Assembly (NCBI GenBank): GCA_963169745.1
Contig: CAUJCU010000017.1
Location: 248,001-312,000, forward strand
DNA length: 64,000 nucleotides
Direction of reading: 5' to 3'
DNA from: Bacteroidota bacterium
GTDB lineage: Bacteria > Bacteroidota > Bacteroidia > UBA4408
The notes beneath the pieces were generated by a model, which saw only the letters and a program-made list of their open reading frames with translations, was not told the DNA's origin and did no database searches. Position 1 is the first letter of the stretch. Every line of letters begins with the position of its first letter. Shown piece by piece: positions 17,758 through 24,709 of this stretch. The translations under genes were made by a program, and so were the position numbers.

Positions 17758-18939
17758 ATGACTAAATTAATTACTATTTTACTATTCGTTATTTCAGCAG
17801 CATATACTCAAAACAGTTGGGCTCAGGAATATGCTATTAAAGTAGGTGTATTGTATGGACAAACGCTAACAGAACTGCAAATACAAAACGGAAAAGGCAA
17901 GGCAAACATATTATTTGACAGTTTAAGTTATAACTTACAAGATACTGTATTTCAATTAAAAATAAAATCTGAATTAAAAGATAGTTTAAGTATATTTTTA
18001 GGGGATTCCCTAATCCTAAAGTGCAAAATGGTACGTGTTATTTTACCCCAAAATGATTACTGTACAATTATTTACAAAGAAAAAAATAAGAGAAGTTATC
18101 CCGGAGCCTTAAACCTGACAAATGTAAATGGGTTTGTTTTTGTTACCAACCTAATAGAAACAGAAAATTATTTACCTGGAGTGCTGGAGGCCGAAGTTGG
18201 TCTAGGGCGCGCCCCTGAATATTATAAGGTTCAAGCTATAATTTGCCGTACTTATGCCTTAAGCCACTTGCGCAGACATGAGATGGAAGACATTAATTTA
18301 TGTGATACCGAACACTGTCAAGTATATAAAGGTTTAAGTCAAAAAAGTACTGATTTGAATAAGGCCGTGAAAAAAACCGAAGGTGTTGTTATGGTTGATT
18401 CAGATTTTATGTTTATTACAGCTGCCTTTCATGCTAATTGTGGCGGTCAAACGGTAAACAGCGAAGATGTTTGGAATAAGAAATTGGATTATTTACGTAG
18501 CGTAAAAGATACTTTTTGCTTAAGACAGCGAAGTGCAGTTTGGAGCGTTTCTTTAAGTGCAGATAAATGGTCATCGGCTCTGTTAAAGCTTTGCCCCCAA
18601 TACCGGTCCGAAGAAGATTCTTTAATTCAATCTCATGAAGGAGCTTTTTTGCAGTTCGACCGTAAAAAATATTATACAGAAAGCCATTCGTGCATGATAA
18701 ATTTAAAAGATATACGTAGCAGCTTTGCATTAAAATCTACTTTTTTTAATGCTTATCAAAAAAATGGACAAATTATTTTAAACGGTCGAGGCTTTGGACA
18801 TGGAGTGGGTTTGTGTCAAGATGGAGCTATGCGAATGGCAAAGTTAGGTTATAGTTATAAATCAATTTTACATTATTATTACCAAAATGTTAGCATTGTG
18901 CACCTAGATAAACTAGATTTCTTTAAATTTAATGAATAA
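17758..18939 (+). CDS. SpoIID/LytB domain-containing exported protein
   Basis: 393 aa with a signal peptide (about 1-22, ending SWAQ). Family signatures are LPGVLEAEVGLG, the conserved RTYAL (CRTYALSHLRR), CDTEHCQVYKG and HANCGGQT. The closing GRGFGHGVGLCQDGA is followed by GYSYKSILHYYYQ. In Firmicutes SpoIID is a lytic transglycosylase acting on denuded glycan during engulfment. Bacteroidota carry homologues without sporulation, likely cell-wall amidase enhancers or glycan-cleaving enzymes. It starts 1 bp after lpxB. The family assignment is firm; the precise activity is inferred. Confidence 0.92.
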   Translation: MTKLITILLFVISAAYTQNSWAQEYAIKVGVLYGQTLTELQIQNGKGKANILFDSLSYNLQDTVFQLKIKSELKDSLSIFLGDSLILKCKMVRVILPQNDYCTIIYKEKNKRSYPGALNLTNVNGFVFVTNLIETENYLPGVLEAEVGLGRAPEYYKVQAIICRTYALSHLRRHEMEDINLCDTEHCQVYKGLSQKSTDLNKAVKKTEGVVMVDSDFMFITAAFHANCGGQTVNSEDVWNKKLDYLRSVKDTFCLRQRSAVWSVSLSADKWSSALLKLCPQYRSEEDSLIQSHEGAFLQFDRKKYYTESHSCMINLKDIRSSFALKSTFFNAYQKNGQIILNGRGFGHGVGLCQDGAMRMAKLGYSYKSILHYYYQNVSIVHLDKLDFFKFNE

Positions 18940-19091: not shown

Positions 19092-21491
19092 TTGACAAAG
19101 ACAACTAATAACAAAAGGGTTCTATTTTTTATCGTACAGTTTATTCTGTTTTGTAACGCTCTATCTTGGGCTCAAGTTTCAAAACCAGACAAAGCCGAAG
19201 CTAAACTTCTAAAAGAAAGTCAGAAATTTGAAGAAGCCCATGAAGCCTATACAGTATTAATAGAAGCCAGCCCCAACGACTATGAAAATTACATTGACCG
19301 TGCTTTTTGCAGTGAAAAGTTAAACCGTTACGAAGAAGCCATAAACGACTATCGTACAGCTTTGAATTTAAAACCCGGAGAAATTGATCTTTACAGAAAA
19401 GCTTTAATTGACTATCTTCAGATAGAAAATTACAATCAAGCTACAGAAATGTTTAGCACTATGGTTCAAATTAAAAACAAAACTGTAGCAGCCTATCAAA
19501 AAATGGCATTAGACAAAATAAAGTTAGCCGAATATGATGGGGCTGTTAAAGAAATAAACACAGCCCTTGATTATGACAATACCAATGATTACTCACACTT
19601 TATTAAGGGCATTGCCATGGACAGCACCGGAAATTTGCAAGTAGCTATTCAAAGTTATTTAAAAGCAATATCATGCATGTATCTTACTAAAGAGTATAAA
19701 GAAGCCAAAGACAAAACGGCATACAAACCTTATTTTATTAATTTAGCTATAGCACAACGAAGAACAGGCAGCGTTGAGGAAGCTCTTAAAAACCTGAATA
19801 CAGCCCTTTCATACGACAGTAATGATTATTTTATTTACACCCAACGTGCTGTAGCTTATACCACTAAAGGCGATTTTCTAAATGCAGAGGTTGATTTCGC
19901 AAAGTCGTTACAGCTTCAGGACAAAAGCGCCAATACATACTACGAGCGCGGTTTGATGTATAAAAAGCAAGAAAAATACCCCGATGCCATTGGAGATTTT
20001 ACCAATGCTATTCTATTTCAAGAAAAAAATCCAAGTGCTCATTATAATCGGGCGCTTTGCTATCAGCACTTGAATAAATATGAAGAAGCGCAAAAGGAAT
20101 TCGATGTTGCAAAATCACAGGGATACAATAAAAAAGCAATTGAAAATGCGGTAGCTGTGTGCAAAGAGAAAGCCTATGAGTTTAATAAAGAAACGAACAG
20201 CCCATTAATTGAAATGAGCAATGCGAATAACAGCTTTGAAAACAAAATAGTACGAGTTCCAAAAAATAAGATTACAGGCACCATAAAAGGGAAAGTAAAA
20301 GACCAAAGCACTATAAAGTCTATTGTTATTGACGGTGTTCCGGCTAATTTCTCGGAAGGTGAAAATAACCCTACTTTTACAGCTTCTATACCGCTTGATA
20401 ACAAAGAGAAAGTTACTGTACAGGTTACCGATGTTTATTTTAACACCACAACAGAAACTTATGATCTGATTCGGACAGAGTCAGCTCCCCCAAAAATAGA
20501 AATGGTTAGTCCTTTTATTACTTTTGATAAGGAAGTATTGCCTGAAAATTCAGGGATAACTAATATTTATGTAGAAGGTAAAATTGAGGATGAAAGTTTG
20601 ATTGATTATGTATTAATAAATGGAGAGAAAGCCAATTTTTCGGCCGAAAACACCAATCCTGTTTTTTCACAAACTATTAATATTGATGGGAAAGACTCTC
20701 TTGTTATTGATATATCTGATATTTATGAAAATCGTAAACGGGTAGCCTATTTTATCAATCGAACTATTGCTGAAGAAGAAAGCAAAAACCCGATGGGACG
20801 CACTTGGGTAATATTTATTGAAAACAGTGATTATCAAAATTTACCTTCATTAGAAGGAACTAAGAAAGATGTTTTGATGATGAAAAATGCATTAGCAAAC
20901 TACAGTATCAGTAAAATTGTTTACAAGCCGAATATGACCAAAGCGCAAATGGATAAGTTTTTCTCCATAGAACTACGCGATCAAATAAACAAGGGACATG
21001 TTCAATCATTGTTGGTATGGTTTGCAGGTCATGGCCGTTACATAAATGAAACCGGCTACTGGTTACCTATTGACGCCTCAAAAACAGATGAATTTACCTA
21101 TTTCCCAATAACGAGCTTAAAAGGCTACTTATCATTATACAAACTGCGCCATACCCTTATTATAAGTGATGCTTGTGAAACAGGACCTGCATTTTATTTG
21201 GCTATGCGTGGTGAAACTTTGGCTAAAGATTGCAATGATTGGGAATCAACTCGATTAAAATCGGCCCAAGTTTTTACCAGTACTGACCGTGAAAAAGCAT
21301 CAGATAACTCCATTTTTACAAAAACCTTTGCAAATGTTCTAAATAATGTTCCCGGAAAATGTATTTCCATTGATAAAATTACCGATAAGGTTAAAATTGC
21401 CGTTGAGCAAAATCAAAAGCAAAAACCAAAATTTGGTAACATTAGCGGACTTGAAGACCAAAATGGTACCTTCTTTTTTATTAAGAAATAA
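19092..21491 (+). CDS. Exported TPR protein with Ig-like repeats and C-terminal caspase-like (C14) domain
   Basis: 799 aa. It must start at the TTG at 19092. An in-frame stop lies at 19077-19079, no ATG follows before the signal peptide (KRVLFFIVQFILFCNALSWAQ), and the mature protein needs that signal. About ten TPR units fill residues 30-370. Two related beta-sandwich repeats begin near 395 and 494, sharing the pattern G-K-[IV]-x-D-x-S-x-I...NG/DG-x-x-ANFS. The caspase-like domain begins at about 572 (WVIFIENSDYQNLPSLEG). The catalytic His is H647 (FAGHGRY) and Cys is C695 (SDACETG); both are intact. The protein should sit in the periplasm or at the outer surface. It is coupled to the SpoIIE-phosphatase gene by a 2-bp gap. 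Confidence 0.88.
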   Translation: MTKTTNNKRVLFFIVQFILFCNALSWAQVSKPDKAEAKLLKESQKFEEAHEAYTVLIEASPNDYENYIDRAFCSEKLNRYEEAINDYRTALNLKPGEIDLYRKALIDYLQIENYNQATEMFSTMVQIKNKTVAAYQKMALDKIKLAEYDGAVKEINTALDYDNTNDYSHFIKGIAMDSTGNLQVAIQSYLKAISCMYLTKEYKEAKDKTAYKPYFINLAIAQRRTGSVEEALKNLNTALSYDSNDYFIYTQRAVAYTTKGDFLNAEVDFAKSLQLQDKSANTYYERGLMYKKQEKYPDAIGDFTNAILFQEKNPSAHYNRALCYQHLNKYEEAQKEFDVAKSQGYNKKAIENAVAVCKEKAYEFNKETNSPLIEMSNANNSFENKIVRVPKNKITGTIKGKVKDQSTIKSIVIDGVPANFSEGENNPTFTASIPLDNKEKVTVQVTDVYFNTTTETYDLIRTESAPPKIEMVSPFITFDKEVLPENSGITNIYVEGKIEDESLIDYVLINGEKANFSAENTNPVFSQTINIDGKDSLVIDISDIYENRKRVAYFINRTIAEEESKNPMGRTWVIFIENSDYQNLPSLEGTKKDVLMMKNALANYSISKIVYKPNMTKAQMDKFFSIELRDQINKGHVQSLLVWFAGHGRYINETGYWLPIDASKTDEFTYFPITSLKGYLSLYKLRHTLIISDACETGPAFYLAMRGETLAKDCNDWESTRLKSAQVFTSTDREKASDNSIFTKTFANVLNNVPGKCISIDKITDKVKIAVEQNQKQKPKFGNISGLEDQNGTFFFIKK

Positions 21492-21493
21492 AC

Positions 21494-24400
21494 ATGAAAG
21501 CAACACAATTGAAAACTTTTATTAATACAGTTGGTGCCTTCTTTTTTATTTTAACAGGGTATCTACAAACACATGCTCAAACGTTTAATTTTAATCATTA
21601 TTCTAATAAAGATGGCTTAATTCAATCAAACGTTAACGATATACTTCAAGACAAAGAAGGATATATTTGGTTTGCCACCGAGGGCGGGCTTTCAAAATTT
21701 AATGGTCAAACATTTGTCAACTTCAGTACCAATGATGGTTTAAGCGAAGCTTCTGTAAGTACGATATGCCAAGACAATATAGGAAAAATTTGGATTGGTC
21801 ATACTTTAGGAAAGGTATCTTTGTATGACGGACAAAAGTTTGAAAATTTTGAGCTAAAATTAAAGGAAACTCCGAATAGAATTTGTGATATTAGTCCTGA
21901 TAATAATAATAACTTGTGGATTAGCACGGTTGGGAGTGGTGCTATTCATATAAACCCGAAGACAAAAAGCTATACAACATACAGCATCAAAGAAAACTTA
22001 ACGGATATTGTTTTTATGAGTTATACTGATGTTAGTGGCCGCACTTGGTTTGTTACTGATATTGGTATTAAATATTTTGAACCTATAAGCAATACTTTTC
22101 TTTTTTTTAAGCCTAAAGGATTTCCATTTTTTGATTATACCTGTATGACACAGGACAAAAACGGTGATTTTTGGTTTGGAACCACTAACCAAGGCATCAT
22201 TAAGTACACCGTAAAAGATAGTACCTCAACTCAATTTAGTCTAGCCGAAGGACTGGAATCGGGCTTTATTACCGGGTTAATAACCAGTCCAACCAATGAA
22301 ATATGGGTAGGAACTTGGGAAGGTGGGATTTCAAAAATTCAAGATTTGAATATTTTAACCATTAGCCCCAAAAACGGCCTTCCAGGCAGTAAAATAAAAA
22401 GTTTATTTATTGATCGTGAATCCTTGTTATGGGTTGGTATGCAAGACAAAGGAATAGCTCAATTTAAAGGATTTCGATTTATTCATTATGGACTTGGAGA
22501 CGGAATTAACAATACCGTAATAAACTGTATTGCTGATGACAAACAAGGTAATTACTGGTTAGGAACGAATAATGGAATTGACATTGTTTCCGTATTCAAG
22601 AATTATATGAAAAAATCCATTCGACATATTGACCTTGAAAATTCACTAGGAAATAACTTAGTAACATCACTTTGCGTTTATGGGAATAAAATTTTTATTT
22701 CAACTTTTAAAGGAAATATTGGAGTTTACGATCTCAAATCGGGAAAAAGCATACAAACAATAAGTATTAACAATAGTTTAATCAATAATCTTACAGTTAT
22801 TAATAATGATCTATGGATTTCGGCTAGTACCGGTTTAACTTCTTATAACTTGAATACGGCCACATTTAAAGATTATACTGAGATGGATAAACGTGTGGTG
22901 CTGAAAGTACATCAAGATAGCCAGGGTGTTATATGGGTAGGAACTCGAGAGTCGGGATTATGGTATTTTCAGAAAGACAAACTAAAACAATTCAACAAAA
23001 TAAACCACAATAGCCCCACTAGCTTTTGCAATGACAAGTTGGGCAATTTATGGATAGGTACTGAAGGAGGAGGGCTTTATAAAAAAAGTGGTAGTGAAAT
23101 TATTAATTTTACCGTTAAGGATGGATTAAACTCCGATTATTTAACTCTTGTTACATCAGATAGCATTGGAAATATATGGGCAGGGACCAACACTGGCTTA
23201 ATAAAATACAACCCCTTAAAAAATGATTTTGTAAGATACGGTATACAGGAAGGCTTTAGTTTTATTGAAACAAAAAACAATGCTGTTCTTAATGATAGTA
23301 AAGGGAATATTTGGTTTGGTACCGTTAATGGAGCTACTTTACTTAATTTATCCGAAACAAAAGGAAAAGATATAGCGCCAATAGTTTACCTGACTAATTA
23401 TGAAATATTTTCAGTGGCACATTCATTGATTCCTAATGCCAAGTTTAACCATACACAAAATGAAATTACGTTCAATTTTATTGGGTTAAGCTTTAGAAAC
23501 CCCACACATATTTTATACGAGTACAAACTTGAAGGCTTAGATGACAAATGGCGCTCAGAATATGGCATTAATAAGGCTGTATTTTCACACTTACCACCAG
23601 GAGAATATAAATTTTTATTAAAAGCCAGCAACAGTGAAGGCGTTTACACCAACCAAACTATTGCCTACAGTTTCGAAATAATACCTCCCATATACAAAAG
23701 AATATGGTTTATTTCACTTATTGTTGTTATTATAATGCTTTTAATATTTGCTTATGTAGCATTTAGAACAAAGTATTTGCGTGATGCAAAAGAAATACTA
23801 GAGAAACAGGTTAAGGAAAGAACTCTAGAAATAGAACATAAAAATGATGTTCTAATACTTAAAAACAGCGAAATTGAGAATAAAAACAAAGAGATAACCG
23901 ATAGTATAAACTATGCCAAAAGAATACAGGAAGCAATCTTGCCAAGTATTCAGCACTTTAAGAAAATATTTCCTGAATCATTTGTAATGTACCGGCCTAA
24001 AGATATTGTAAGTGGTGATTTTTACTGGTTTGCAGATATAAAAGCAAAATCAAAAAATCACTCCGAAGAGAATGACATATATGTTTCCGTAGCCGACTGT
24101 ACTGGTCATGGTGTTCCTGGAGCATTTATGTGCATGATTGGGAATGCTTTGCTAAATCAAATTGTACAAGAATCAAACGATTTTAGACCATCTAAAACTT
24201 TAGAGTTACTAAACATTGGCGTACGCGATGCCTTAAAACAGCAAGAAACAGAAACTCGTGACGGGATGGACATTGCCCTTTGTCATATAAACAGAACAAA
24301 AAAAGTTATTGAGTTTTCGGGGGCAATGCGCTCGTTAATTTTGTTTAGAGGGGCTTCCTTCAAGCAACAACATAATTTACCTGCAAAAGAGTCAGTAATG

Positions 24401-24709
24401 CAAGAAATAAAGGCTGACAAGCTCTCTATTGGAGGTATACAAGGAGAAATTCTTAAGGAATTTACAAATTATCGTATTCCGTATTACCTGGGTGATACCA
24501 TTTATTTATATACCGATGGCTTTGCCGATCAGTTTGGAGGTGAGAGAGGGAAAAAATTAATGTCTAAACGCTTCAAAGAATTACTTCATGATATTCAAGA
24601 ATGTACTATGGAGGAACAGCAGAATAGTCTTAATTCGTATTTTAATAGTTGGCGTGGTGACTTAGAACAGGTTGATGATGTACTTGTTATCGGTATACGA
24701 TTGGTGTAA
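21494..24709 (+). CDS. Membrane sensor: two-component-type beta-propeller, Y_Y_Y domain, TM segment and SpoIIE/PP2C phosphatase
   Basis: 1071 aa. Signal peptide about 1-29. Two seven-bladed propellers (30-640) consist of 'reg_prop' repeats with GYIWFATEGGLSKFNG and many NxWxGT blades. A Y_Y_Y domain (about 650-735) includes YEYKLEGLDDKWR and LPPGEYKFLLKASN. One TM helix lies at 736-758 and a coiled coil at 765-810. A cytoplasmic SpoIIE-type PP2C domain runs to the end: SGDFYWFAD near 840, VADCTGHGVPGAFM near 865, YTDGFADQ and DDVLVIGIR. The metal-binding Asp residues are present. It looks like a hybrid-sensor histidine kinase whose kinase was replaced by a Ser/Thr phosphatase. Expected targets are anti-sigma-antagonist-type phosphoproteins, none of which is in the window. 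Co-transcribed with the caspase-like gene. Confidence 0.93.
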   Translation: MKATQLKTFINTVGAFFFILTGYLQTHAQTFNFNHYSNKDGLIQSNVNDILQDKEGYIWFATEGGLSKFNGQTFVNFSTNDGLSEASVSTICQDNIGKIWIGHTLGKVSLYDGQKFENFELKLKETPNRICDISPDNNNNLWISTVGSGAIHINPKTKSYTTYSIKENLTDIVFMSYTDVSGRTWFVTDIGIKYFEPISNTFLFFKPKGFPFFDYTCMTQDKNGDFWFGTTNQGIIKYTVKDSTSTQFSLAEGLESGFITGLITSPTNEIWVGTWEGGISKIQDLNILTISPKNGLPGSKIKSLFIDRESLLWVGMQDKGIAQFKGFRFIHYGLGDGINNTVINCIADDKQGNYWLGTNNGIDIVSVFKNYMKKSIRHIDLENSLGNNLVTSLCVYGNKIFISTFKGNIGVYDLKSGKSIQTISINNSLINNLTVINNDLWISASTGLTSYNLNTATFKDYTEMDKRVVLKVHQDSQGVIWVGTRESGLWYFQKDKLKQFNKINHNSPTSFCNDKLGNLWIGTEGGGLYKKSGSEIINFTVKDGLNSDYLTLVTSDSIGNIWAGTNTGLIKYNPLKNDFVRYGIQEGFSFIETKNNAVLNDSKGNIWFGTVNGATLLNLSETKGKDIAPIVYLTNYEIFSVAHSLIPNAKFNHTQNEITFNFIGLSFRNPTHILYEYKLEGLDDKWRSEYGINKAVFSHLPPGEYKFLLKASNSEGVYTNQTIAYSFEIIPPIYKRIWFISLIVVIIMLLIFAYVAFRTKYLRDAKEILEKQVKERTLEIEHKNDVLILKNSEIENKNKEITDSINYAKRIQEAILPSIQHFKKIFPESFVMYRPKDIVSGDFYWFADIKAKSKNHSEENDIYVSVADCTGHGVPGAFMCMIGNALLNQIVQESNDFRPSKTLELLNIGVRDALKQQETETRDGMDIALCHINRTKKVIEFSGAMRSLILFRGASFKQQHNLPAKESVMQEIKADKLSIGGIQGEILKEFTNYRIPYYLGDTIYLYTDGFADQFGGERGKKLMSKRFKELLHDIQECTMEEQQNSLNSYFNSWRGDLEQVDDVLVIGIRLV

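Follow-up and report, generated by a model that had tools for sequence, protein, structure and literature searches.

Does a gene coding for an exported caspase-like protein, located immediately before a receptor gene, encode a partner of that receptor, or are the two genes merely neighbours? This question is raised by a locus in a stretch of 64,000 nucleotides (positions 248,001 to 312,000 of contig CAUJCU010000017.1, assembly GCA_963169745.1; hereafter the window) from a Bacteroidota bacterium (Bacteroidia, UBA4408). As correctly noted in an original prediction made from the sequence alone, two open reading frames lie there on the + strand, separated by 2 bp. The first one, here called CASP, codes for an exported protein with tetratricopeptide repeats (TPRs), two beta-sandwiches, and a caspase-like domain; the second one, here called PROP, codes for a putative sensor with a periplasmic double beta-propeller, a single transmembrane (TM) helix, and a predicted SpoIIE/PP2C phosphatase at its C-terminus. 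We assign a probability of about two in three to the reading that this pairing of an exported caspase with a phosphatase-ended propeller receptor represents an undescribed signalling unit leading from the periplasm to the cytoplasm, whose two subunits would be CASP, as the dedicated exported input partner, and PROP, as a receptor with a swappable output.

Conservation and co-inheritance of the two genes

The distribution of CASP was checked in an even sample of 395 genomes of the class, representing 197 genera (CASP called at E <= 1e-30); 54 genomes, belonging to 22 genera, harbour it. In 20 genomes, the next gene after CASP, in the same orientation, codes for a propeller-SpoIIE protein of about 1060 aa; in two further genomes the contig ends inside a propeller next to CASP, and in the family f9 the following gene codes for a propeller-cyclase. 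Propeller adjacency was found in nine out of the 12 CASP-bearing families. Moreover, a species-level scan (one genome per species, GTDB r220) retrieved 277 CASP relatives, the best 80 loci of which were read; three of them, whose contigs end right after CASP, were left out as uninformative. Within this set, PROP comes next after CASP on the same strand in 67 out of 77 loci, with a median gap of 14 bp (<=30 bp in 56 of the 67). Among the hosts of the pair is a cultured one, Plebeiobacterium marinum (L207). The original prediction had called for this count, and was to be abandoned if the neighbourhood was not conserved and the two proteins occurred independently; on the contrary, the pair is clearly conserved and, as reported below, co-inherited.

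The open frames, the domain order, and the gene order are kept throughout the class, at a sequence identity of about 35%, which indicates that the observation is more than chance. The genes upstream of the pair vary (ribD in the large main group of Bacteroidales, surE-lpxB-spoIID in the genus of the window); therefore, it is the pair itself, and not the region, that has been kept. We considered ribD as a possible member of the system and rejected it, since it is a housekeeping neighbour found in one group only. In a phylum-level draw of 395 genomes, only the window's own genome harboured CASP, the frequency of which depends on the genome draw; since the listed part of this draw consists of complete, low-contamination genomes, the pair seems to reside mostly in uncultured lineages.

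Two variants of the caspase gene were also observed. In five loci (L139, L148, L149, L154, and L189), an apparently exported stand-alone caspase of 258-270 aa lies directly upstream of CASP, giving a three-gene version. In the family f24 (L124, L125, and L235), relatives of CASP consist of a stand-alone caspase domain of about 265-285 aa, with no TPRs and no adjoining receptor.

The phylogenetic tree obtained with the propeller ectodomains (49 rows) placed all the CASP-paired PROPs in one clade (support 100/99), together with the cyclase PROPs and with unlinked PROPs of CASP-bearing genomes. The remaining propeller sensors of the window's genome fall outside this clade, hereafter the module clade, as does a sister group of propeller-SpoIIE receptors. 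The module clade includes PROPs that do not adjoin CASP, namely those of genome G005 (family f1) and of three genera of the family f3, in each of which CASP is found elsewhere in the genome; in genome G173, both genes are kept about 90 kb apart. Every module-clade PROP sampled, including the unlinked ones, stems from a CASP-bearing genome.

The opposite case is represented by the genus g88 (family f3), whose five genomes harbour no PROP of the module type, with all candidates scored (absences of PROP rest on key genomes in which all or nearly all candidates were scored). The CASPs of this genus have lost the dyad, reading QA, QA, LT, and EG, with the fifth (L127) reading likewise; in the f3 relatives that possess PROP, CASP is intact, with both His and Cys. 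The g88 sequences belong to one clade, and thus these losses are probably a single evolutionary event. This co-decay is independent of gene adjacency as evidence, and the data as a whole support, at the level of sequences, a conserved and co-inherited CASP-PROP unit.

Output domains, catalysis, and the nature of the proposed partnership

If the two proteins work together, what is the property that they share in all lineages? In the family f9, the output of the propeller receptor encoded beside CASP is a class III nucleotide cyclase (PF00211, 190 bits); its motifs FTDMKGFT, KTIGDSYM, and DIWGDTVNTASRM contain the residues expected of an active adenylate cyclase. In the ectodomain tree, the cyclase PROPs are nested inside the phosphatase clade and, in f9, are still located directly after CASP; the cyclase PROP of the family f62 (L236) also falls within the module clade. 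As for the number of output swaps, one or two, the support for a single one is 56%. Both the p10 part and the catalytic Cys are missing from all 11 f9 CASPs, ten of which retain the His; the phosphatase-paired ones possess His, Cys, and p10 in all 63 sequences, and D693, two residues before the Cys, is strictly conserved in the SpoIIE pairs. As judged from these residues, proteolysis is under visible selection in the phosphatase branch only, and, because f9 keeps the pair with a caspase lacking both Cys and p10, the common denominator of the unit appears to be the partner-receptor relation.

In the family f62, a MFS-HEAT-cyclic-nucleotide-binding protein is encoded after CASP in two genomes (L107 and L113/L255) and after the propeller-cyclase in L236 (7380-10709; PF00027, 67 bits). 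Its position hints at a candidate cyclic AMP effector.

The same residues bear on the proposal, put forward in the original prediction, that PROP is cleaved by CASP in its periplasmic part, which would turn the phosphatase on or off. In favour of such a proteolytic switch are the strict conservation of H647, C695, and D693 in the SpoIIE pairs and the fact that, in metacaspases, the Asp equivalent to D693 lines a pocket for Arg/Lys. Nevertheless, no strongly conserved, pair-specific Lys/Arg was found in the propeller or Y_Y_Y part of PROP, the best site being a weak K/R68 (88% in caspase-paired sensors versus 10% in the cyclase lineage), and the lineage with the dead, p10-less caspase still keeps the pair. 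For these two reasons, cleavage of the sensor is not supported, and we regard the switch as quite unlikely.

Another possibility is that the substrate of CASP is a different periplasmic molecule (an inhibitor, an envelope protein, or a peptide) and that PROP responds to this substrate or to its processed form, with no contact between CASP and PROP. The closest solved relative of PROP is, by its PDB title, a heparin/heparan sulphate sensor, which suggests that this receptor type reads soluble ligands; the retention of the active dyad where the output is a phosphatase, and the fact that the two genes can be unlinked, agree with this idea. It does not explain why the cyclase lineage keeps the pair though its caspase cannot cut, and we consider it rather doubtful.

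Furthermore, CASP is not the only caspase found beside such receptors. In genome G003 (L064/L222), a WD40-caspase gene directly abuts (0 bp) a downstream propeller-SpoIIE gene, and the receptor falls outside the module clade. A search of the class with the G003 caspase domain revealed this second caspase class in 48 genomes; among the best 30 loci of these genomes, a propeller gene lies directly after, on the same strand, in nine and tail to tail in one more, and the receptors reach the SpoIIE end where covered (G185, G070, G173, and G003). Since the WD40-caspase class also adjoins propeller receptors, which in G003 lie outside the module clade, the combination of an exported caspase and a propeller receptor has probably arisen more than once.

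Exported caspases, mostly with a WD40 N-terminal part, were seen directly upstream of propeller receptors in L064/L222, L257, L258, L263, L264, L265, L272, L273, and L279. In the sister propeller-SpoIIE clade, which spans many families, another exported protein is encoded just upstream (L238, L239, L240, L242, L244, L245, L246, L249, and L254); in some loci it is CarboxypepD_reg-like (33.5 bits in L239).

Some data weigh against a CASP-PROP unit. Most of the genomes are metagenome-assembled, which makes absences soft. The CASP and PROP distance matrices correlate, in favour of the unit (r = 0.94; 0.84 with the matrix of the upstream gene removed; 27 loci; permutation maximum 0.30), but the control gene is the upstream neighbour, mostly but not certainly RibD throughout. 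Genomes G174, G298, and G144 of the family f62 harbour an intact CASP and no detectable PROP of the module type; the sister clade of receptors operates without a caspase; the cyclase lineage does not need caspase catalysis; and the window's genome possesses two more CASP paralogues, solitary and away from any receptor, one of them with the Cys changed to Thr.

The solitary paralogues and the f62 genomes would also fit a linkage that is coincidental or purely transcriptional, with independent envelope genes co-expressed in one operon, and an operon-like spacing is by itself no proof of a shared function. Such a linkage is at odds with the change of the flanking genes, with the co-inheritance of unlinked genes and the co-decay in g88, with the swap of the output while the pair was kept, and with the recurrence of the arrangement with WD40-caspases; we consider it highly improbable.

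In the reading that we prefer, namely that CASP and PROP form one unit, CASP would read a periplasmic event via its TPR and sandwich surfaces, helped by its proteolytic activity in the phosphatase branch. These surfaces would bind PROP or a third protein, and CASP would alter the state of the propeller/Y_Y_Y part of PROP. The two should meet in the periplasm, since both proteins start with a signal-peptide-like helix and that of CASP has no lipobox cysteine. The signal would then cross the membrane through the single TM helix and the coiled coil to a replaceable enzyme; the state of the receptor would set the PP2C activity here, and an adenylate cyclase would be the enzyme in another lineage. 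The sequences themselves establish the architecture, the linkage and co-inheritance of the genes, the conservation of the dyad, and the swap of the output; with this scheme we infer, in addition, a contact between the two proteins, a signal running from CASP to PROP, the activity of both enzymes, and the existence of a stimulus.

As for the next step, the query used found nine SpoIIE-domain genes in the window's genome, which also codes for two single-domain STAS proteins with a serine motif (NSSG and DSSG), at C10:94212 and C10:35959, and for one small HATPase_c_2 protein, an RsbW-like kinase (C21:17464), all three unlinked to the pair. These proteins are possible candidates for a downstream Ser/Thr phosphoswitch, and the phosphatase would probably target the stand-alone STAS proteins of such an RsbW-type switch.

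Features of the locus and of the two proteins

The features of the two genes are listed in Table 1. The architecture anticipated for both proteins, including the intact H647/C695 of CASP and the double propeller, Y_Y_Y domain, single TM helix, and metal residues of PROP, was confirmed; the domains of both proteins were recovered by the Pfam searches and by the AlphaFold2 models, and those of PROP also by Foldseek.

Table 1. Coordinates, in the window, of the two genes and of their predicted features.
Feature	Position	Strand	Basis and remarks
CASP gene, 799 aa, TTG start	19092..21491	+	signal peptide, TPR solenoid, two beta-sandwiches, caspase domain
CASP signal peptide, residues 1-27	19092..19172	+	MTKTTNNKRVLFFIVQFILFCNALSWA-Q, read by eye; model helix 6-26
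CASP TPR solenoid, residues 34-364	19191..20183	+	Pfam TPR models; model helices 34-364
CASP two beta-sandwich domains, residues 372-555	20205..20756	+	model strands 372-473 and 491-555; weak Glucodextran_B PF09136
CASP caspase (C14) domain, p20 + p10, residues 570-799	20799..21488	+	PF00656, 61.5 bits
CASP catalytic His647 (AGHG)	21030..21032	+	invariant in 63/63 SpoIIE-paired homologues
CASP catalytic Cys695 (DACE)	21174..21176	+	invariant in 63/63 SpoIIE-paired homologues; missing in 11/11 cyclase-lineage homologues
PROP gene, 1071 aa	21494..24709	+	signal peptide, double propeller, Y_Y_Y, TM helix, coiled coil, SpoIIE phosphatase
PROP periplasmic double beta-propeller, residues 30-650	21581..23443	+	Reg_prop PF07494; model strands; Foldseek 4a2m, E 1.2e-50
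PROP Y_Y_Y domain, residues 667-727	23492..23674	+	PF07495, 47.7 bits
PROP single TM helix, about residues 737-757	23702..23764	+	hydrophobic WFISLIVVIIMLLIFAYVAF within model helix 737-775; by eye
PROP cytoplasmic coiled-coil linker, residues 758-815	23765..23938	+	model helices 737-775 and 785-815; pLDDT low at 771-794
PROP SpoIIE/PP2C domain, residues 819-1071	23948..24706	+	PF07228; 6k4e SiaA PP2C; D842, D868, D1008, D1062 invariant or near-invariant

The full-length Pfam scan of CASP retrieved the TPRs (PF07719, E 1.6e-27) and missed the caspase domain, which was matched by PF00656 well above its cut-off of 21.4 bits when scanned alone; a PF00656 search across the window's genome likewise gave no match, probably since the full-length context hid the domain. 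The similarity of the beta-sandwiches to Glucodextran_B is below the cut-off (20.9 bits versus 27), and both are clear in the AlphaFold2 model (alignment of 52 relatives; mean predicted local distance difference test, pLDDT, 84.5), in which some 19 TPR-like helices are followed by the two sandwiches and, at the C-terminus, by an alpha/beta domain. With the full-length model, Foldseek retrieved the OGT TPR domain (6eou) as best match, and the best 50 matches were all TPR proteins; neither the caspase domain nor its profile retrieved a useful match among the PDB sequences. Two caspase or peptidase groups were rejected for CASP, i.e., the EACC1-associated subfamily (NF047832; 51.1 bits, cut-off 140) and the TPR-CHAT/Craspase type (domain matches at E <= 5 to PF00656 and DUF2459 only, with no CHAT).

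In PROP, Pfam retrieved Reg_prop (129.8 bits), Y_Y_Y, and SpoIIE (49.6 bits, cut-off 25); no kinase model matched, the SpoIIE domain being in the place of a histidine kinase. The AlphaFold2 model (alignment of 52 relatives; mean pLDDT 86.3) shows both propellers and the Y_Y_Y sandwich, then a single long helix crossing the membrane, and finally a coiled coil leading to a PP2C fold. Foldseek matched the C-terminus to the PP2C domain of SiaA (6k4e; TM-score 0.88 on the target) and the ectodomain to BT4663 (4a2m/4a2l). Of the PP2C Asp residues, D868 and D1062 do not vary among the 52 relatives. The original prediction gave a histidine kinase as the normal end of reg_prop sensors, which is incomplete, since the window's genome alone codes for five propeller-SpoIIE proteins and one propeller-cyclase. 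A propeller receptor with a nucleotide cyclase end in this genome (L223:3482-7408, G000:C2) lies outside the caspase-paired clade. The PorZ family of type IX secretion (NF052228) was rejected for PROP (76.2 bits, cut-off 260).

In the surroundings, a SpoIID/LytB-domain protein (TIGR02669, 194 bits; 17758-18939) is encoded 152 bp upstream of CASP and was seen as a neighbour only in the genus of the window, and a convergent aroE comes after PROP. Promoter and terminator scans of the locus performed no better than shuffles, and PADLOC recognized no known anti-phage defence system: no caspase or receptor model matched, and the sole hit, to a TPR model, was weak (15.5 bits).

Significance and comparison with known systems

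Most caspase homologues of bacteria have no known function and are chiefly viewed as proteases of cell death or defence. If true, a conserved association with a transmembrane receptor would give a large group of exported caspases a role in envelope signalling. The lineages offer natural contrasts (an active caspase with a phosphatase, a dead caspase with a cyclase, and co-decay upon receptor loss) that make cutting versus binding directly testable. Besides, the propeller receptors of Bacteroidota are seen to swap their output enzymes while retaining what is probably a dedicated periplasmic partner. Tentatively, one can envisage a whole class of envelope-signalling systems in Bacteroidota, in which exported caspases, as dedicated co-ligands or as proteolytic triggers, act on propeller receptors with swappable outputs (phosphatase or adenylate cyclase); this class, which we regard as possible, would have at least two origins (TPR-sandwich and WD40-type), and its dead versions would be pure binding partners.

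We found no description of the CASP-PROP pair in the open-access literature, in agreement with the novelty claimed for it, and each half has known relatives. PROP shares the double reg_prop propeller, the Y_Y_Y domain, the single TM helix, and the signalling helix with the hybrid two-component propeller sensors of Bacteroides (BT4663 and BT3049; 4a2m and 3v9f); these end in a histidine kinase and a response regulator, whereas PROP has a SpoIIE phosphatase as its output and its gene is immediately preceded by that of an exported caspase-like partner. The PP2C/SpoIIE domain is shared with SiaA, the biofilm phosphatase of Pseudomonas aeruginosa (6k4e; NF038263, 181.8 bits over 764-1070), but this score is far under the cut-off of 700, the sensor domain is different, and no linked SiaB/C-like genes were seen.

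CASP has the p20 and p10 parts and the His-Cys dyad of prokaryotic metacaspases/orthocaspases (C14). A 2012 survey lists TPR repeats as common partners of prokaryotic caspase homologues, and neither a propeller nor a SpoIIE protein is among the partners named in its section on operons (PMC3501461); CASP differs from the known homologues in being exported and paired with a receptor. Pseudo-orthocaspases, mostly alpha-proteobacterial and cyanobacterial, keep the caspase fold after the loss of the dyad (PMC6426788), as the f9 CASPs do, but the dead f9 version adjoins a propeller-cyclase receptor. Finally, the sister propeller-SpoIIE receptors share with PROP both the receptor type and the exported protein encoded just upstream; they form a separate clade, and their partner, CarboxypepD_reg-like in some loci, is not a caspase.

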